Shown: piece after piece, positions 16,589 through 63,034 of the stretch | How positions within the stretch are numbered: the first letter of the stretch is position 1 | How the letters are laid out: each line of letters begins with the position of its first letter | DNA from: Meiothermus sp. | GTDB taxonomy: Bacteria > Deinococcota > Deinococci > Deinococcales > Thermaceae | Assembly (NCBI RefSeq): GCF_026004055.1 | Contig: NZ_BPIJ01000002.1 | Span: 869,803 to 933,802, forward strand | Reading direction: 5' to 3' | Length of the DNA: 64,000 bases | Program-made: the position numbers and the translations under genes | Notes under the pieces: model-generated | What the model was told of the DNA's origin: nothing | What the model saw: only the letters and a program-made list of their open reading frames with translations | Database searches by the model: none

Positions 16589-16663
16589 GGGCGATTAGCT
16601 CAGCGGGAGAGCACACGCTTCACACGCGTGGGGTCGTAGGTTCAAATCCTACATCGCCCACCA
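16589..16663 (+). tRNA. tRNA-Val (anticodon CAC)
   Basis: A complete 75-base cloverleaf. The acceptor GGGCGAT pairs with ATCGCCC, the D arm has GCTC/GAGC, the anticodon stem is CACGC/GCGTG with loop TTCACAC (anticodon CAC), and the T arm is GTAGG-TTCAAAT-CCTAC, followed by discriminator A and an encoded CCA. Its 3' part is the attachment site of the element that follows. Confidence 0.96.
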
Positions 16664-16664
16664 A
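16619..16664. repeat. Left attachment site (46-bp direct repeat in tRNA-Val)
   Basis: The 46 bases from the anticodon loop through CCA plus one A are repeated exactly at 19990-20035. This is the usual site for tyrosine integrases, which recombine in the anticodon/T-arm half and rebuild the tRNA. Confidence 0.93.
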
Positions 16665-16669
16665 GTCCG

Positions 16670-16695
16670 GGACGCTACTCAGGGAAGTAGCGTCC
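16670..16695 (+). terminator. Hairpin just downstream of tRNA-Val
   Basis: A perfect 10-bp stem (GGACGCTACT/AGTAGCGTCC) with a six-base loop begins seven bases after the tRNA CCA. The following bases are only moderately T-rich (TCTTCATTT), so termination is plausible but not certain. Confidence 0.55.
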
Positions 16696-16775
16696 TCTTC
16701 ATTTGCCCTGAAAATACGACACTTGTACGACATAGCCACCTTTGACTGGCCATGCGTTACTGTTGGAGGTGCAAA

Positions 16776-17801
16776 GTGAGCGGCCAGGCAGTGGGGTTGC
16801 CCCCACGGCTGGCCGCTCCACCCCCCCCTACTAACAGGGGGGTGGAGATTACAAAGCATGGTCTGATTGTTGGTTTCCACACGCTCACCTTCACGATTCA
16901 GGCTCCACCGGACTATGTGCGCTACGTGGCGGCGGGTCTCGTTGCACCAGGGCATGAGGATACGGCGGCCTGGCTACCTATCGGGCACGGTGGACGTGGC
17001 TACCGTGAGATACACCTGGGGCCGCTTGGGGTCAAGGTATACACGCTGCCAGTGGACGGCTCGGATCGCTGCACCCTGGAGATTCCCGGCTCGGCGGTGG
17101 ATACCATCAGTGCTGAACACCTGCACGATTTTGCAACCTCCCTGGAGCAGGCCGGTGTCCGGTGGTGGGCCTCCCGTGGCGACATCTACGCCGACCACTG
17201 CCCATTCACTCCTAAGGACTTGCTGGGGGCCTTTCAGCGGGGTGACATTCGCTCGGTGGTCAAAACCACTAATGCCCGGAGCTGGGGCTGGCATCAGAAC
17301 GGGGAGGGTTCGACTTTTACCCTGGGTTCTCGTTCCTCTGAACGTTACCTGCGGGTTTATGACGCTCGGGGCTACACTCGTACTGAGCTGGAGTTCAAGG
17401 GTGAGCGGGCTAGGTTAGTGCTGCGAGAAGTGTTGCTGAGTCCTCCTGGTGAGTGGGCGGTTCGGTTCTTGGCTCATCTACGTCAGTTCGTTGATTTTGT
17501 AGATGCTTCAGCCGATACCAACATCAGCCGTGCTCCCTTGCTGGCATGGTGGCGGGCCTTCGTGGGCGGGGTAGAGAAAGCGGCCCTGCACATTGCAAAG
17601 CCCCTCCCTACCCTGGCCCGGGTTGCGTCCTGGCTCCGGCGACAGGTGGCTGCGTCGGTAGCCATGATGGAAAAAGCCGACCCCTACGCCTTCGGCGATT
17701 TCCTGGTGAACCTCCTCCAAACGGGTAGGGAAAAGCTCGGGCCAAGACACAAACTTATCCTCGCCATGAATGTACCCACTGCAACCATAGCCTCAACTTG
17801 A
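16776..17801 (+). CDS. Rep_trans-family replication initiation protein
   Basis: The 341-aa product (GTG start) resembles replication initiation factors of the Rep_trans type, which nick one strand at the plasmid origin through a tyrosine. Supporting segments are FTIQAPPDYVRYVAAGL near the N-terminus, ADHCPFTPKDLLGAF, and SSERYLRVYDARGYTRTELEFKG near residue 205, where such proteins place conserved Tyr, Arg and acidic residues. GTG 16776 is chosen over ATG 16752 because GGAGG lies six bases before it. The 5' end of the gene contains the hairpin cluster at 16778-16847. Confidence 0.72.
   Translation: MSGQAVGLPPRLAAPPPPTNRGVEITKHGLIVGFHTLTFTIQAPPDYVRYVAAGLVAPGHEDTAAWLPIGHGGRGYREIHLGPLGVKVYTLPVDGSDRCTLEIPGSAVDTISAEHLHDFATSLEQAGVRWWASRGDIYADHCPFTPKDLLGAFQRGDIRSVVKTTNARSWGWHQNGEGSTFTLGSRSSERYLRVYDARGYTRTELEFKGERARLVLREVLLSPPGEWAVRFLAHLRQFVDFVDASADTNISRAPLLAWWRAFVGGVEKAALHIAKPLPTLARVASWLRRQVAASVAMMEKADPYAFGDFLVNLLQTGREKLGPRHKLILAMNVPTATIAST
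16778..16847. promoter_or_regulatory. Overlapping strong hairpins inside the start of rep: candidate replication origin
   Basis: First hairpin: 16778-16787 (GAGCGGCCAG) pairs perfectly with 16809-16818, with an inner GTGGGG/CCCCAC stem (16791-16796/16801-16806). Second hairpin: 16816-16826 (CTCCACCCCCC) pairs perfectly with 16837-16847 across a 10-base loop. They share bases 16816-16818, so they exclude each other. Rolling-circle plasmids of the Rep_trans type often keep the double-strand origin as hairpins in the rep gene. A translational control role is the main alternative. Confidence 0.5.
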
Positions 17802-17981
17802 TTGTCCTGAGTCCTAAGAGCAAGGCTCAAGCTGCACTGAGGCGGCCCCCAAAAAACTGTTGAACTGAACAGGGGTCGTAAATGTTCGTGCAGCGTAGAG
17901 CCGCGCAGTAAAGAGAAAAGGCCCGTCAAGCTATTGACTAGTTTTTTCAAAAAGAAAGGGAGTGTATTATTAGGTCACACT

Positions 17982-18359
17982 ATGTCCAGAGCTAAGCACA
18001 AAGAGCAGAACTTACCCGATACAGTGCCGTTTGACCTTGCTAAACTAGAACCAATAATCCAAGCTGCATCAAAGAAGTACCAGGGCAACCTTGATTTACT
18101 TGAACGAGCCTTGGGTGCGCTCATCATGGGTCAACTCTTCGGGTACAAAGTCCTGAGAATTGTTCACTCACCAGCGACTTACGCTAAGTACGAGCGTATT
18201 TTGGGGGTAAAGTTTCGGGAAGTATGCCCGCCCCAAACTGCATGGTCACGGCGCAATAGTGGTTACAGATGGGCTGAAAACTTCGGTGACTTTTGGGAGG
18301 CCATAAGGAAGAATCTAATCCCGTCTGAAGGGAAGCAAGAAACGACCGCATCTGAGTAG
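17982..18359 (+). CDS. Hypothetical protein of the integrative element
   Basis: A 125-aa protein without a recognisable domain. It is helical around LAKLEPIIQAASKKYQGNLDLLERALGALIMG and basic elsewhere. ATG 17982 is more plausible than the upstream TTG at 17934, although the ribosome site is weak. Base composition is AT-richer than neighbouring chromosomal genes. It could be a DNA-binding or copy-control protein of the element; this is only positional inference. Confidence 0.55.
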   Translation: MSRAKHKEQNLPDTVPFDLAKLEPIIQAASKKYQGNLDLLERALGALIMGQLFGYKVLRIVHSPATYAKYERILGVKFREVCPPQTAWSRRNSGYRWAENFGDFWEAIRKNLIPSEGKQETTASE

Positions 18360-18381
18360 TTGATAGAAAAATACGTATAGC

Positions 18382-18410
18382 TTGACAGAATACTTGTCCT
18401 TTGCTACCCT
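18382..18410 (+). promoter_or_regulatory. Promoter of the xis-int pair
   Basis: A -35 TTGACA (18382-18387) and a -10-like TACCCT (18405-18410) are separated by 17 bases. The -35 overlaps a small dyad (GACA-7-TGTC) that could be a repressor site. Confidence 0.6.
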
Positions 18411-18416
18411 CATTTA

Positions 18417-18464
18417 CGAACAAACCCGCACACGCTTTCAGAGGGTCGTAGTGCGGGTAGTTCG
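18417..18464 (+). promoter_or_regulatory. Leader hairpin upstream of xis-int
   Basis: 18417-18431 (CGAACAAACCCGCAC) pairs with 18451-18464 (GTGCGGGTAGTTCG), leaving one small bulge and a 19-base loop. It would form at the 5' end of the transcript from the promoter at 18382 and lies 18 bases before the excisionase start. It may attenuate integrase expression. Confidence 0.5.
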
Positions 18465-18481
18465 GAAAGGATAGGTGTTCC

Positions 18482-18730
18482 TTGTCAGCTATTCATAGTA
18501 GCACTTCAAACCTTCTTCCACAAAAGCCCGTTTTCTCCATCCGAGAGGTCATGGAGATACTAGGAGTCTCGCGCGATACGGTAGAGCAAGAACTTCGCTC
18601 AGGCCGCCTGGCATGCAAGCGGCTGGGAAAGCGGCGTGTTGCGATTCCCTTCTTAGCTCTCAAGACCTATCTGGAGACCTTCGATCAGTACGAGCTGCAA
18701 GAGGTAAAGGATGCCCTCCCCTGGGACTAA
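18482..18730 (+). CDS. Excisionase-like HTH protein
   Basis: An 82-aa protein containing a MerR/HTH_17-type helix-turn-helix: FSIREVMEILGVSRDTVEQE, then LRSGRLACKRLGKRRVAI. This is the standard layout of small excisionases and recombination directionality factors. It starts at TTG with GGAAAGGATAG upstream and overlaps the integrase gene by 20 bases, so the two are co-translated. Confidence 0.78.
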   Translation: MSAIHSSTSNLLPQKPVFSIREVMEILGVSRDTVEQELRSGRLACKRLGKRRVAIPFLALKTYLETFDQYELQEVKDALPWD

Positions 18731-19847
18731 ACCTAGCAAGGGTACTATCCCTGAACCCACCAGGCGTAAGGATAGGCCCCTCTTTGAGGGTAAGGTCGTG
18801 GTGGGCTACCGTAATGGACGCCCTCTGCGGAAGTCAGTCTATGGCAGGACAAAGCAGGAGTATTGGGAGAAAGCCCTACAACTTCTCAACCAGTCTCCTT
18901 TGGCCCTACTGGCAAACGCTGATAAAGTCACACTCAAGCGTTGGCTGGAGCGCTTCATTCGAGATAAGGCTCCTGAGGTACGCCAAAACACCCTTGAGAA
19001 CTACCAGCAGTACTTTCGGTACATTGTTGCTGACCTTGGCGGCATTCTCCTGACTGAAATCAAGAGCGCTCACATAGACTTTCTACTGCGAAGCCTGGCG
19101 GAGCGCAATTTGTCCCCTTCGGTACGGAAGCATGTTTATCACTTCCTCAAAAAAGCGCTTCGCAAAGCCTATCAACTAGACATTATTCCGGCTAATCCAG
19201 CCGACAAACTCGATGCGCCTAAGGGTGGAACTGTCCGCACCACAAGCGCCTGGACGCCCTCCGAGGTCAAGCGTGTGCTGGCGGCTGCTGAGGGTACGCG
19301 CTGGTATGCGCCCATCCGCTTTGCCATCACAACCGGGGTACGCCCTGGGGAACTCTTTGCGCTCCAGTACGGCGATATTCAAGGCTCCAAGGTAAAGATT
19401 AGCCGCACCCTCTTGGCTGCTGGCCCTACACCTGTCTTTGGAAAACCCAAGACCAAAAGCAGTGAACGAGTGTTTCACCTTGATGCCGGAACTCTTGCCG
19501 TCCTTGAACAGTACCGCTACTTGGTCGAAGAAGAGAGGGCCTTGGCGGGTTCCAGGTGGAGGGATTTTGCCCTGGTTTTTCCCTCCTCGCTTGGAACCCC
19601 GGTCTCAATCAACAACTTTAGACGTGCCCTACGGTCTCTCGCGGAGGCTGCTCAGGTTCCCTATCGTACTCCGCACGAGCTACGCCACACTCACATCACG
19701 CTGATTCGCCGGAAAGCGGACGTAAAGCTGGTTTCCCGCAAGGCAGGGCATGCCGACACAGTTCTCACCGATAAGGTCTACAACCACCCTGAGGATGATG
19801 ACCTAAAAGCTGTTGCACTCCCTCTGGAACGAGCTTTTGGGGGATGA
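18711..19847 (+). CDS. int: Tyrosine site-specific integrase
   Basis: A 378-aa phage-type integrase. The N-terminal part has an arm-binding AP2-like strand set (GKVVVGYRNGRPLRKSVYG) and a SAM-like core-binding domain (about residues 65-165). The catalytic domain has Arg in TTGVRPGELFAL, the HELRHTH box, GHAD and the nucleophile Tyr in DKVYNH near residue 364. All catalytic residues are present, so the element may still be mobile. It reads towards the right attachment site 142 bases away. Confidence 0.93.
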   Translation: MPSPGTKPSKGTIPEPTRRKDRPLFEGKVVVGYRNGRPLRKSVYGRTKQEYWEKALQLLNQSPLALLANADKVTLKRWLERFIRDKAPEVRQNTLENYQQYFRYIVADLGGILLTEIKSAHIDFLLRSLAERNLSPSVRKHVYHFLKKALRKAYQLDIIPANPADKLDAPKGGTVRTTSAWTPSEVKRVLAAAEGTRWYAPIRFAITTGVRPGELFALQYGDIQGSKVKISRTLLAAGPTPVFGKPKTKSSERVFHLDAGTLAVLEQYRYLVEEERALAGSRWRDFALVFPSSLGTPVSINNFRRALRSLAEAAQVPYRTPHELRHTHITLIRRKADVKLVSRKAGHADTVLTDKVYNHPEDDDLKAVALPLERAFGG

Positions 19848-19989
19848 AGTGGAGTACGAAGAATGACGAACAAACGAAGCATTGTGAGCCATACCAAGTA
19901 CCCTTCGATCAGACCTGGGCGACTGAGACGTTTCGTCCAGGAAACGATTTACGGGATATTCTGTTCCGATGCCAAGGCAGAGATGGTAA

Positions 19990-20035
19990 TTCACACGCGT
20001 GGGGTCGTAGGTTCAAATCCTACATCGCCCACCAA
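19990..20035. repeat. Right attachment site (46-bp direct repeat)
   Basis: An exact copy of 16619-16664, that is, the 3' part of tRNA-Val without its 5' half. It is followed by ordinary post-tRNA sequence and a terminator, which was presumably the original downstream flank of the tRNA. Confidence 0.93.
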
Positions 20036-20061
20036 CCAAGCACCAAGTCCAGCACAGCCTA

Positions 20062-20087
20062 AACCCCCAATCTGCAGATTGGGGGTT
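20062..20087 (+). terminator. Strong palindromic terminator beyond the right attachment site
   Basis: A perfect 26-base palindrome (arm AACCCCCAATCTG) is followed by GGGTTGTTTT. It probably ended the tRNA-Val transcript before the element integrated, and would now end transcription leaving the integrase gene. Confidence 0.8.
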
Positions 20088-20129
20088 GGGTTGTTTTAAG
20101 GCCGAGTGTAGCAACCTAAAGGGGCCGTC

Positions 20130-20320
20130 TCAGTTGGGCAGGCTGTTGACCTGAATCCGCTGTCTGTTGGTGAGCCTGGCAGCGGTGTGGATGTCCAGAA
20201 CGTATTCCAGGCGCTCCTGCTCGAGTACGTGTCGGTACACATTCAGAGTGAAGGTGGGGTTGGCATGGCCCAACCGCTCCGATACTACCCTCGCTGATAA
20301 ACTTGAAGACGCATATGACC
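20130..20320 (-). pseudogene. C-terminal remnant of a second tyrosine integrase
   Basis: Read on the minus strand, the segment encodes SSLSARVVSERLGHANPTF followed by TLNVYRHVLEQERLEYV and then a stop at 20130. SERLGHA and NVYRHVL are the last catalytic boxes (His, then Tyr) of phage integrases. The rest of the gene is missing at the 20.3-kb junction. It points towards the tRNA-Val site, suggesting an earlier element used the same locus. Confidence 0.72.
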
Positions 20321-20647
20321 ACCCAGCAAGCTCTGCTTAGTAGCCCTACTTCTCCTGAACGCTTTGGATTTGCGGGTCACGAAACCTTCCCCTTTCGCTA
20401 TGGCTGGCTCAAGAAGGCTGTGGATGCAGTGACCAGCGATGCAATGTTGCTTAGCTCTGATCAGGCTCTGGTGGAGCTGGGGGTGGGGAAGAACATGGTG
20501 CAAAGCATTCGCCACTGGGGGCTGGCCACTCAGGTTCTGCAAGAGGGTCAGGGTCGCAGCCTCGAGGTCTCTCGCATAGGTGCGCTGCTCTTTGGGGAAT
20601 GGGATCCCTACTTGGAAGACCCCGCCTCATTTCACACCTATCATTGA
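20315..20647 (+). pseudogene. Truncated DUF4007-family gene
   Basis: The 110 residues from ATG 20315 contain FGFAGHETFPFRYGWLKKAV and ELGVGKNMVQSIRHWGLATQ, the N-terminal signature of DUF4007 proteins. Full-length members are, as I recall, near 300 aa, so this is the N-terminal third; it stops where GC-rich DNA changes to AT-rich DNA at about 20640. I recall DUF4007 genes beside DNA sulfur-modification (Dnd-like) genes, which fits the cysteine desulfurase nearby, but could not check it. Confidence 0.65.
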
Positions 20648-20710
20648 TGTATTTTCGCGTATTGTAGTCAGTCAAATACAGCGTGAGGATGCAGTATTCT
20701 TTGAGTTAAG

Positions 20711-21859
20711 ATGTCCTCTGTTCAGTTTTCTCCGGCTGGAAAGCTTATTGGAACAATTCTTAGACACGACGCTAAGACTGCAAGTTATAAACTTGCGTTG
20801 ATTCGGAGCATTAATGACGTAGCTCTAGGATTTCCCGAGTTCATGGCTTCAGAGAACAAAAGCAGTTTGGCCGTTCCTTTGAAGCTTCTGGCTGAATTCT
20901 GGATAGCGTACTACTGGCCGTTTGTTGGTAATGTACACATCCTACAAGGTCGGCCTCAAGGCAGTAAACAAGATGTCTCATTTAGGAAAGACCTGAGTGC
21001 GCTACGGATTTACTGGGAAAAGAACAATTTTGGCTTTTCCCAATCAGATGGATATTACCTAGTATCCGAGATGCGTTCGTTCAGGAGAGCACAGACATAT
21101 CCGCCGGATTTGCGATTGCTTTACAAGAATGCAAAAGAAGCAGTTCTACACGCTATTCGACAACCCATTCGTTATGCAGGGCAGGAGGAATGGTCTTTGT
21201 TCCCAAAGCCTAGGCATTGGAGGCAACTAAAGCACCGAACAAACACCGTTGCACTACCAGGAACCCAAGAGGAAGACCTTTGTCTTCAGATAGATGCAAG
21301 CTTGTGGGGTGAGTTCCTCCAGGTGTCTTTATGGGTAGAGGCACTTTGTATTCATGAGTGGGCTTTGTTTACAGAGCGACTTACCGGTATAAACCGGGGT
21401 CAGGTTTATGAAGCGCTCACAAGCCGACCTGACAACCGCAGGCCCCTGACTTGGGAACGAAACCAAGTTGAGCTGTTGATGATGGAAGGGCACACTTTTG
21501 TTTGTCCCTGGACAGGAAACGAACTGAACACAAAAAATTACGATATAGACCACTTGATTCCGGTTTCACTGTACCCGATTAACGAAACCTGGAATCTTGT
21601 TCCGGCAGACCGAGGATTCAATCAAAGAGTGAAAAGGGATAAACTGCCCAGTGACCAACGAATAGAGAAGCTAACCTTTCGGTTACCTCAATGCTATGGG
21701 CTTTATGAACTCTCAGAGTTGAGAGAGCCGCTCAGGGTGGACTCGAACAACAGGTTTGGAGACTTGGGCAGTCAGGAACACTTTCGCTTTGCATTATCCC
21801 AGGCTGTTGGAAGGTTAATAACTGCAATGAAGTATTCCAGAAACGTTGCTGAGTTTTGA
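20711..21859 (+). CDS. HNH endonuclease domain protein in AT-rich DNA
   Basis: A 382-aa protein. Residues 1-110 (RHDAKTASYKLALIRSINDV and following) form a helical domain of a type I associate with defence-island HNH proteins. The C-terminal part has a full HNH/zinc site: CPWTGNEL, YDIDHLIPVSLYP, and NETWNLVPADRGFNQRVKRD near residues 265-315. The gene is markedly AT-rich and uses codons unlike the flanking genes, so it arrived separately. It may be an antiphage nuclease. Its stop overlaps the next reading frame. Confidence 0.75.
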   Translation: MSSVQFSPAGKLIGTILRHDAKTASYKLALIRSINDVALGFPEFMASENKSSLAVPLKLLAEFWIAYYWPFVGNVHILQGRPQGSKQDVSFRKDLSALRIYWEKNNFGFSQSDGYYLVSEMRSFRRAQTYPPDLRLLYKNAKEAVLHAIRQPIRYAGQEEWSLFPKPRHWRQLKHRTNTVALPGTQEEDLCLQIDASLWGEFLQVSLWVEALCIHEWALFTERLTGINRGQVYEALTSRPDNRRPLTWERNQVELLMMEGHTFVCPWTGNELNTKNYDIDHLIPVSLYPINETWNLVPADRGFNQRVKRDKLPSDQRIEKLTFRLPQCYGLYELSELREPLRVDSNNRFGDLGSQEHFRFALSQAVGRLITAMKYSRNVAEF

Positions 21860-22992
21860 CGATAAACGTACCCAACTTGAAATTGTGGATTTTTCTTGTT
21901 GAATATCTAGGCAACCCCTCGAGCAGCCTCCATCCTTTGGGGCGCAACGCTGCTGATGCCGTAGAGCAGGCCCGTAGCCAGGTGGCCCAGCTTATTGGAG
22001 CCAAACCCGGTGAAATTGTGTTCACCAGCGGTGCTACCGAGAGCAACAACCTTGCTATTTTTGGTGTAGCTGCGGCATACAAGGGCCCTCGTAGGCGCTT
22101 GGTGACTTCTCCCATCGAGCACAAAGCCGTGCTCGAGCCCATGCGGAGGCTTTCCCAAGAGGGTTTCGAGCTGGTGTATCTGCCAGTTGATTCAAAAGGA
22201 AGGGTTGATCTCGAGGCTGCCCAGCGCCTCATTGACCAACGCACCCTCCTTGTTTCGGTGCAGGCGGCCAACAACGAAATAGGTACCCTGCAACCGATGG
22301 GCCAGATCGCAGCGTTGGCAAAAGAAGCCGGAGCATTCGTTCATTGCGATGCTGCACAGGCGGTGGGCAAAGTGCCGGTGGATGTGGGGGCCTGGGGAGT
22401 GGATTTGCTGTCCCTTAGCGCTCACAAAATCTACGGCCCCAAGGGTGTGGGAGCCCTGTACATTCGGCAAGACTTGAAGAAGTCCCTCCCTAGGCCACAG
22501 GTACTCGGTGGGGGTCAGGAGTGGGGTTTGCGCTCGGGAACCCTCAACGTGCCGGGGATTGTCGGGCTTGGGGCTGCATGTGCGATTGCCGAGGCTACCC
22601 TGGACGAAGAAGCCCGTCGAATTGCCACCATGCGCGATGCCTTTGAGCAGGGCCTGAGTTCCAGAATACCCGGCATTTGTTTCAATGGCGACTTGGATTG
22701 CCGTTTGCCGGGCAACAGTAGCATCAGCTTTCCTGATGTGGAAGCCGATGCCTTGATTTTGAACCTACCGGACATTGCCTTAAGCATGGGCTCAGCCTGC
22801 AATTCAGGTGCCCTCGAGCCCTCCTATGTTCTAACTGCCATAGGCCTATCCAGAGAACAGGCTTACAGTACGGTGCGGGTTGGCTGGGGCCGGTTTAATA
22901 GTTTGGCTGAGGTGACCTTTGCAATAGATCGGATTTGTAGCGGCTATGAGCGGCTCAGGGCTGAGAATCCAGCAGCCCACAAGCTTTCATAA
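21856..22992 (+). CDS. 5'-truncated cysteine desulfurase (IscS/DndA-like)
   Basis: From residue about 18 (EYLGNPSSSLHPLGRNAAD) the protein is a class V aminotransferase-fold cysteine desulfurase. The PLP lysine is in SLSAHKIYGPKGVG and the catalytic cysteine in SMGSACNSGALEPS. The usual N-terminal segment with LDNAATT is absent; its place is taken by unrelated AT-rich codons starting at a TTG that overlaps the HNH stop. The enzyme is therefore probably inactive or misfolded. It may have been the DndA-type sulfur donor of a DNA-sulfur-modification cassette, or an ordinary IscS. Confidence 0.72.
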   Translation: MTINVPNLKLWIFLVEYLGNPSSSLHPLGRNAADAVEQARSQVAQLIGAKPGEIVFTSGATESNNLAIFGVAAAYKGPRRRLVTSPIEHKAVLEPMRRLSQEGFELVYLPVDSKGRVDLEAAQRLIDQRTLLVSVQAANNEIGTLQPMGQIAALAKEAGAFVHCDAAQAVGKVPVDVGAWGVDLLSLSAHKIYGPKGVGALYIRQDLKKSLPRPQVLGGGQEWGLRSGTLNVPGIVGLGAACAIAEATLDEEARRIATMRDAFEQGLSSRIPGICFNGDLDCRLPGNSSISFPDVEADALILNLPDIALSMGSACNSGALEPSYVLTAIGLSREQAYSTVRVGWGRFNSLAEVTFAIDRICSGYERLRAENPAAHKLS

Positions 22993-32186: not shown

Positions 32187-32526
32187 GTGATCTGGTAACA
32201 AAATTTCCGAAGTTATGTACCGCACACCGAATACATCGATGTAGAGATTCCATCCCACTTCGGCCCCCGAGATGGCCTAAAAACGCCCTCCCTACCGCGT
32301 AGGGAGGGTGGGGGAGGGTATCAGGCAAGGCCCGCAATCCGCTGCGTGAAGGGCCAGGTCAGCCACCCCACCTGGCCTCCCCTACGCAGTAGGGGAGGGA
32401 AGGGGCGAAGCGGGGTGGGGTGCTTTTTGCATGACCGTACAGGCAAGGCACCGAAGGCCCAGGTTTACGAGACACGGCGCGTTCTGAAGGCTAAACCCCA
32501 TACTGCGTATTTTGTTACCAGACCAC
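32187..32526. mobile_element. 340-bp MITE-like element, copy 1
   Basis: Termini GTGATCTGGTAACAAAATTTCCG and, inverted, GTGGTCTGGTAACAAAATACG, flanked by TA on each side. It is nearly identical along its whole length to 44363-44702 and 62695-63034, all exactly 340 bp. The interior carries GC-rich dyads around ACGCCCTCCCTACCGCG and CTCCCCTACGCAGTAGGGGAG. There is no transposase gene, so it must be moved in trans if mobile; TA flanks suggest an IS630/mariner-type enzyme. Confidence 0.82.
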
Positions 32527-32646
32527 TAGTACGCCGTCAACCGCTAAGAGGCAGGTTGGGGGCCAATGGTTTTCGAGCAAACTGCCTCCAGCACGTTTCC
32601 GGTTTATTCACGGCGCGGAAAAACTATCAGTTGACGCACCACTAGT
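32525..32646. repeat. 122-bp element with imperfect inverted ends, abutting the MITE
   Basis: The end ACTAGTACGCCGTCAAC (32525-32541) matches the inverse of 32630-32646 in 13 of 17 positions. It shares the ACTAGT junction with the preceding MITE, and its far end runs into the stop codon of the GntR gene. I see no gene inside. It is a candidate third small insertion in the same stack. Confidence 0.5.
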
Positions 32647-44342: not shown

Positions 44343-44362
44343 CTCATGTGCGGAGTGATCTA

Positions 44363-44702
44363 GTGGTCTGGTAACTAAATTTCCGAAGTTTTGTACCGCA
44401 CACCGAATACATCGATGTAGAGATTCCATCCCACTTCGGCCCTCGAGATGGCCTAAAAACGCCCTCCCTACCGCGTAGGGAGGGTGGGGGAGGGTATCAG
44501 GCAAGGCCCCCAATCCGCTGCGTGAAGGGCCAGGTCAGCCACCCCACCTGGCCTCCCCTACGCAGTAGGGGAGGGAAGGGGCGAAGCGGGGTGGGGTGCT
44601 TTTTGCATGACCGTACAGGCAAGGCACCGAAGGCCCAGGTTTACGAGACACGGCGCGTTCTGAAGGCTAAACCCCATACTGCGTATTTTGTTACCAGACC
44701 AC
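44363..44702. mobile_element. 340-bp MITE-like element, copy 2
   Basis: Termini GTGGTCTGGTAACTAAATTTCCG and, inverted, GTGGTCTGGTAACAAAATACG, flanked by CTA on the left and TAG on the right. The interior differs from the other two copies by only a few bases. No gene is inside; the recurring reading frame starting MKGQVSHP is a by-product of the repeat. Confidence 0.83.
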
Positions 44703-44722
44703 TAGTATGTAAATTTCAGGGT

Positions 44723-62391: not shown

Positions 62392-62694
62392 AGGTAGTGC
62401 GGGCCGGATGCTCTGGTAGCATCCGCTAACCCCACCCCCTATGGTACACAGCGCCGTCCGGGGGGCCGGGTATTCTGCGTAACTGTGGGCGTTAAGGCCA
62501 TGTGGCCAGAGTTAACTAAATGCCCTCCATTTGATGGAACCTCTGTAAGCAGCGTGGATCTGCGCGCCGATGGGAAAACTGGGAAGGCGCCAAACCAACC
62601 CCAGAGATGAAGCTTCTTGTAGGGGTACTTATTGCGTTTCCACAAACACTGCCCTCGCGGCGACCACTGTTCTGTCCAGGACAAAAGGTTCTTA

Positions 62695-63034
62695 GTGGTC
62701 TGGTAACTAAATTTCCGAAGTTTTGTACCGCACACCGAATACATCGATGTAGAGATTCCATCCCACTTCGGCCCCCGAGATGGCCTAAAAACGCCCTCCC
62801 TACCGCGTAGGGAGGGTGGGGGAGGGTATCAGGCAAGGCCCGCAATCCGCTGGGTGAAGGGCCAGGTCAGCCACCCCACCTGGCCTCCCCTACGCAGTAG
62901 GGGAGGGAAGGGGCGAAGCGGGGTGGGGTGCTTTTTGCATGATCGTACAGGCAAGGCACCGAAGGCCCAGGTTTACGAGACACGGCGCGTTCTGAAGGCT
63001 AAACCCCATACTGCGTATTTTGTTACCAGACCAC
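62695..63034. mobile_element. 340-bp MITE-like element, copy 3
   Basis: Same length and termini as the other copies (GTGGTCTGGTAACTAAATTTCCG and its inverse). It is flanked by CTTA on the left and TTAG on the right, so either TA or TTA could be the target duplication. It sits directly beside the dispersed 40-bp repeat. Confidence 0.83.

Follow-up and report, generated by a model that had tools for sequence, protein, structure and literature searches.

A 3.4-kb tRNA-Val element of Meiothermus with its own Rep_trans initiator and the make-up of a minimal integrative rolling-circle replicon

The DNA considered here (the window) is a stretch of 64,000 nucleotides from Meiothermus sp. (assembly GCF_026004055.1, contig NZ_BPIJ01000002.1, positions 869,803 to 933,802 of the forward strand), in which a small element is lodged in a tRNA-Val gene between two copies of a 46-bp repeat. 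Four genes, all on the plus strand, lie between the repeats in the order rep, orf125, xis and int, with a candidate origin hairpin close to the start of rep (Table 1). The element has a G+C content of 54.5%, compared with 62.1% for the window. An initial annotation, made from the letters of the DNA, had proposed a near-minimal tRNA-Val element with its own rolling-circle Rep, and this proposal is supported by the attachment (att) repeats, the Rep residues, the nick hairpin and the relatives described below.

Table 1. Positions of the features of the tRNA-Val element within the window
Feature	Position	Strand	Remarks
tRNA-Val (anticodon CAC)	16589..16663	+	intact, integration target; ARAGORN; Rfam RF00005
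attL	16619..16664	+	46-bp direct repeat, from anticodon loop to tRNA 3' end
Terminator-like hairpin	about 16669-16696	+	directly after attL; hairpin at same place in relatives
rep	16752..17801 or 16842..17801	+	Rep_trans (PF02486) replication initiator
Large inverted repeat	16776..16821	+	G/C-rich, upstream of nick hairpin
Candidate double-strand origin/origin of transfer (oriT)	16816..16847	+	12-bp perfect stem, loop CTACTAAC
orf125	17982..18359	+	125 aa, family-less, predicted all-helical
Possible promoter (TTGACA) and leader hairpin before xis-int	18380..18457	+	hairpin 18425-18457; from sequence
xis	18482..18730	+	excisionase-like HTH_17, 82 aa, TTG start, 20-bp overlap with int
int	18711..19847	+	tyrosine integrase, 378 aa, catalytic residues present
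attR	19990..20035	+	second 46-bp copy, displaced tRNA 3' end

The two 46-bp copies are exact and spaced by 3371 bp, as was claimed in the initial annotation of a ~3.37-kb element. Further exact repeats of similar or greater length are present elsewhere in the window, and the 46-bp repeat is taken as the attachment site not by its length alone but because the 3' end of a tRNA and an integrase gene lying against the far copy coincide with it. Direct repeats that enclose an integrase gene, one of them being a tRNA 3' end, are the arrangement of a site-specific integrative element. The tRNA-Val(CAC) gene is the only tRNA found by ARAGORN in the window, and nothing other than tRNA scored above threshold in an Rfam scan. 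Comparison with a strain that lacks the element had been recommended, and such a strain was found in a congener (G001, locus L057), where the tRNA-Val gene is directly adjoined by sequence matching positions 20042-20115, just past attR (89% over 75 bp). An unoccupied site should have this appearance, and the match sets the right boundary of the element at the repeat. An origin of the repeats by chance or through assembly was dropped in view of the exact tRNA end and the unoccupied site in the congener. Terminator-like hairpins stand both after attL and 3' of attR (the latter at 20062-20087), from which it is inferred that the element probably brings a replacement terminator for the tRNA-Val gene that it enters; promoter and terminator scans gave scores not above shuffled background. 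Searches with the element DNA returned zero matches in plasmids and only short ones in phages (~2% of the query), which fell in tRNA-Val where annotated.

The integrase, first annotated as intact with all catalytic residues, matches PF00589 (5.9e-16) and phrog_1 (2.7e-59) and contains R211, H322-x-x-R325, H347 and Y357, all of which are kept in a relative. The overlapping gene, which had been called excisionase-like, encodes a protein matching PF12728 (9.2e-9) and scoring 32.5 bits with the TIGR01764 'excise' model (cut-off 28.8). The TTGACA promoter before these two genes was not picked up by a consensus scan; a similar TTGACA and hairpin were seen by eye in the corresponding place of L007, the related element of G044 described below. 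No match to the orf125 product was found in Pfam, PHROGs, NCBIfam or PADLOC, and no relatives in plasmids or viral contigs. Its helical model, of low to medium confidence (predicted local distance difference test score 70), gave no fold match (best E 2.7). The open reading frames (ORFs) between the repeats include no cargo, capsid or transfer gene, in agreement with the earlier description, and none within 16619-20035 encodes an FtsK-like Tra translocase such as is characteristic of the actinomycete integrative and conjugative elements (AICEs).

The Rep protein may start at an ATG (349 aa) or at a GTG (319 aa), the latter lying inside the nick hairpin. It was confirmed as Rep_trans-like by a match to PF02486 of 72.9 bits (E 3.5e-20; cut-off 29.6), and a profile of Rep and its relatives matches the solved Rep_trans proteins 4CIJ (GsRep; E 1e-19) and 4CWE/4CWC (E 2e-4). 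Missing nicking residues had been named beforehand among the findings that would refute the proposal, but the alignment places R-V-Y203-D of Rep (349-aa numbering) with R-F-Y-E-K and R-I-Y-N-K of the solved proteins, and its R-x-D and R-T-E-L-E (E-x-E) segments with the acidic motifs of 4CIJ and 4CWE. The tyrosine of this motif is catalytic in RepD (Y188) and RelSt3 (Y252) (PMC6499999). A PF02486 domain with a predicted catalytic tyrosine and acidic residues, as in Rep_trans replicons, is therefore encoded by the element.

The cleavage site of MOBT and Rep_trans enzymes is CT'AA, carried in the loop of a G/C-rich hairpin (PMC9371924). The candidate origin close to rep is of this form, with CT'AA in its loop, as in other Rep_trans replicons, and the nick is accordingly predicted between 16832 and 16833. 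Positions 16820-16843 are identical at 21 of 24 bases to the oriT of the integrative and conjugative element (ICE) ICEBs1, ACCCCCCCACGCTAACAGGGGGGT, as printed in PMC10233336, whereas 100 shuffles of the window gave 0 matches; by this likeness the hairpin is also an oriT-like sequence of the kind seen in MOBT integrative mobilizable elements (IMEs). The 211 bases from 16660 to 16870 fold well beyond their shuffles (z -6.0), and the large inverted repeat upstream is possibly accessory to the origin. A scan of IMG/VR with CCCCCCN4CTAACAGGGGGG gave 109 matching stretches, of which 80 were fetched (L076-L155). A Rep_trans homologue is encoded in 76 of these 80 viral contigs, and in each of the 76 the motif is on the strand of the Rep_trans frame, either at the 5' end of that frame or immediately ahead of it. 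A scan of 111 genomes of the order gave the motif a single time, in this element. As an observation in its own right, filamentous phages and Tn916-like elements carry the motif so regularly at the 5' ends of their Rep_trans genes that it could be used as a tag in searches for such origins.

Relatives of Rep and of the 125-aa protein, a search for which had been advised, were sought in the same 111 genomes. Those of Rep were found in G038 and G044 only and those of orf125 in G044 and G045 only; a direct search of the genome contigs with the single Rep sequence gave no match, whereas whole-genome searches and alignments did find relatives. The G044 genome, a metagenome-assembled genome (MAG) from another family, contains on its contig C5 a complete, diverged element of 3534 bp (L007) at a tRNA-Val(CAC) gene (8512-8438), with 48-bp repeats at 8482-8435 and 4948-4901 and the gene order rep, orf125, a family-less 129-aa gene and int. 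The proteins of the two elements are 28-34% identical, and hardly any DNA is shared outside the att region. Because two elements that have diverged so far share both layout and target, the comparison suggests that the layout is maintained by selection on a functional unit, and the Meiothermus element appears to belong to a small family instead of being a chance remnant. In G038, the rep frame begins ~120 bp past a tRNA-Ala(TGC) gene, with ACTAAGA in a hairpin loop before the conserved rep core. This locus was not counted as a complete element, as the contig ends soon after rep and no second att copy was found.

The third genome, G045, provides a different setting for orf125. Its contig C386 (L032) is 3484 bp long with termini that overlap by 141 bp, which indicates a circle of 3343 bp; it is an apparently complete circular plasmid of a Deinococcales MAG and encodes a Rep_1 initiator (PF01446, 2.5e-9) together with the orf125 homologue. 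As orf125 thus accompanies two unrelated initiators, Rep_trans and Rep_1, it would have an accessory role in rolling-circle replicons, and its product is probably an accessory of the replicon, acting in copy control or origin binding. The initial annotation had guessed at a plasmid on the one hand and at a satellite of a filamentous phage on the other, and the first of these guesses gains support from this plasmid.

The lack of cargo, the single chromosomal copy and the relics of other elements at the site would all fit a dead remnant that has lost excision and replication. Nevertheless, all four ORFs are intact, the catalytic residues are kept, the att copies are identical, the origin hairpin is perfect and the layout is preserved in a diverged relative, so that such a remnant is considered very improbable.

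A phylogenetic tree was constructed from 25 Rep_trans proteins, three of them element Reps. These three form a group with the Rep from a filamentous prophage of G044 (L008; support 93/91), and the next neighbours of this group are two gut inoviruses (86/96). A clade of the element Reps that leaves out the prophage Rep was not rejected (approximately unbiased (AU) test, p 0.083), whereas one uniting them with the sampled Firmicutes plasmid Reps was (AU p 0.0035). Because the branches are long, the link to filamentous phages is regarded as a lead and not as proof. The prophage itself (contig C14, 2715-8544) encodes a Rep_trans initiator, small membrane proteins and a Zot homologue (8.3e-6).

This grouping is the part of the satellite guess that stood: the element could be a satellite of a filamentous phage, or descend from such a phage by reduction, with an inovirus-type Rep of its own and a helper that packages or extrudes it. 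A Zot-type ATPase profile is scored by 61 of the 80 motif-bearing viral contigs, on a permissive count, and in G044 an element of this type coexists with a filamentous prophage whose Rep is related. The remainder of the guess fared less well. No Zot homologue (PF05707) was matched in this genome (G000), and thus no filamentous helper is visible in the same host, although past or outside helpers may have been available. No DNA common to the G044 element and the G044 prophage was detected by blastn, which short signals could escape. The element is without coat, Zot or repressor gene, it has its partner gene orf125 in common with a Rep_1 plasmid, and the Rep tree is deep and long-branched. A satellite is accordingly held to be unlikely. 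The broader proposal, that minimal integrative replicons of this layout (tRNA, nick hairpin, rep, orf125, xis or another small gene, int) form a new Deinococcales family whose members have a replication module derived from filamentous phages and travel as satellites or single-stranded DNA passengers of such phages, is speculative and distinctly unlikely.

The likeness of the hairpin to the ICEBs1 oriT raises another alternative, in which the element is an integrative mobilizable element whose Rep doubles as relaxase, the hairpin serving as oriT and a resident conjugative element moving it. Rep_trans proteins do serve as relaxases in Streptococcus IMEs (PMC7563843), and a coupling protein is absent in 35 of 118 non-canonical Streptococcus IMEs (PMC5704250). 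However, a clade of the element Reps with MobT relaxases was rejected (AU p 0.0195), the MobT model gives Rep 34 bits where its cut-off is 600, and no helix-turn-helix domain was found in Rep by family scan. No VirB4 above the family cut-off was found in this genome, where a 32-residue P-loop match was the only hit, although a helper need not be resident. Mobilization by this route is judged quite improbable.

The element is best read as an integrative rolling-circle plasmid reduced to its replication and integration modules, an interpretation that is held to be probable rather than firm. Int would recombine the 46-bp core within tRNA-Val(CAC), with insertion restoring the 3' end of the tRNA and the element providing the terminator, and Xis and Int together would excise a circle of 3371 bp. 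On the circle, the Rep tyrosine would nick the origin hairpin at CT'AA, after which rolling-circle copying would be carried out by host polymerase and helicase and the circle resealed by Rep, with orf125 acting as an accessory of the replicon. For spread between cells the element has no gene of its own and would probably depend on natural competence or a helper. Several findings weigh against the plasmid interpretation. The genome (3.18 Mb, three contigs) contains the element as a single copy integrated in the chromosome, with no second copy or free circle, and the attP junction (19989 joined to 16619) was not found in viral contigs. Rep is nearer to the Reps of filamentous phages than to the sampled plasmid Reps, and both orf125-bearing relatives are MAG contigs. 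Finally, the hairpin before rep in L007, GCGCCGTGCTG-GTAT-CACCACGGCGC, is without CTAA in its loop, and the nick sequence of that element would hence be different or lie elsewhere.

Each module of the element has known counterparts. With AICEs such as pSAM2, in which repSA, xis and int form one operon and which use a tRNA target and rolling-circle replication (PMC3218068), it shares a tRNA 3'-end site, a tyrosine integrase, an Xis beside Int and a rolling-circle initiator; it differs in having no tra or pra, in its Rep_trans instead of RepSA, in its size of 3.4 kb and in its occurrence in Deinococcales. Rep_trans/MOBT IMEs and ICEs (ICEBs1, Tn916, IME_oriT; PMC9371924, PMC10233336) likewise combine a PF02486 enzyme with an adjacent G/C hairpin that contains CT'AA, but the present element lacks a type IV secretion system and coupling protein, and its Rep falls outside the MobT clade. 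The Rep_trans inoviruses, among which a Cupriavidus filamentous prophage with a PF02486 pII has been described (PMC10011098), share the nick motif at the rep 5' end and have the nearest Reps in the tree, whereas the element is without coat, Zot and single-stranded DNA-binding genes and has its own tyrosine integrase and tRNA site. Plasmids of the pT181 family and pSTK1 are alike in Rep_trans domain and active-site residues but are not integrative, and a clade of Rep with sampled Firmicutes plasmids was rejected, as described above. No description of these modules combined at such a size in Deinococcales was found in the limited open-access literature consulted.

Here an ICEBs1/Tn916-type nick hairpin sits in an element of Deinococcales that belongs neither to the conjugative elements nor to the phages, a finding relevant to the exchange of replication modules among plasmids, filamentous phages and mobilizable elements. 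With four genes and a nick predicted to the base, the element would allow the whole cycle of excision, rolling-circle replication and re-integration to be tested, and a thermophilic minimal integrating replicon could become a useful vector backbone for these bacteria.

The tRNA-Val site is also used by other elements. ICETh2 inserts at tRNA-Val in Thermus and has relatives in Meiothermus (PMC7693054), and the same tRNA-Val holds seemingly related elements of 5.8-7.7 kb in four congeners (G003, G008, G013 and G016). These differ from the present element in a replication module of primase/helicase type, with large proteins recognized by eye from length and sequence and not by family search, and in a different integrase that adjoins the tRNA and points at it. 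Just past attR, on the minus strand (20130-20273), lies the C-terminal relic of a tyrosine integrase, the best matches of which are integrases of these four congeners (59% over 29 residues). It reads as the trace of an earlier ICETh2-like occupant, and the site has thus served at least two kinds of element.

Further along, at 20303-22992, lie what appear to be the remains of an Ssp/Dnd DNA phosphorothioation defence system beside the integration site: an SspB (DUF4007) truncated to its first third, an ORF carrying an HNH_4 domain, and a cysteine desulfurase of the DndA/SspA type. Elsewhere in the window, exact repeats of up to 197 bp are dispersed over three places (32216-32531, 44361-44707 and 62693-62852), and close direct repeats are found at 51341-51386/51617-51662 (46 bp, spacing 276 bp) and at 56479-56703/56743-56967 (about 100 bp, spacing 264 bp).

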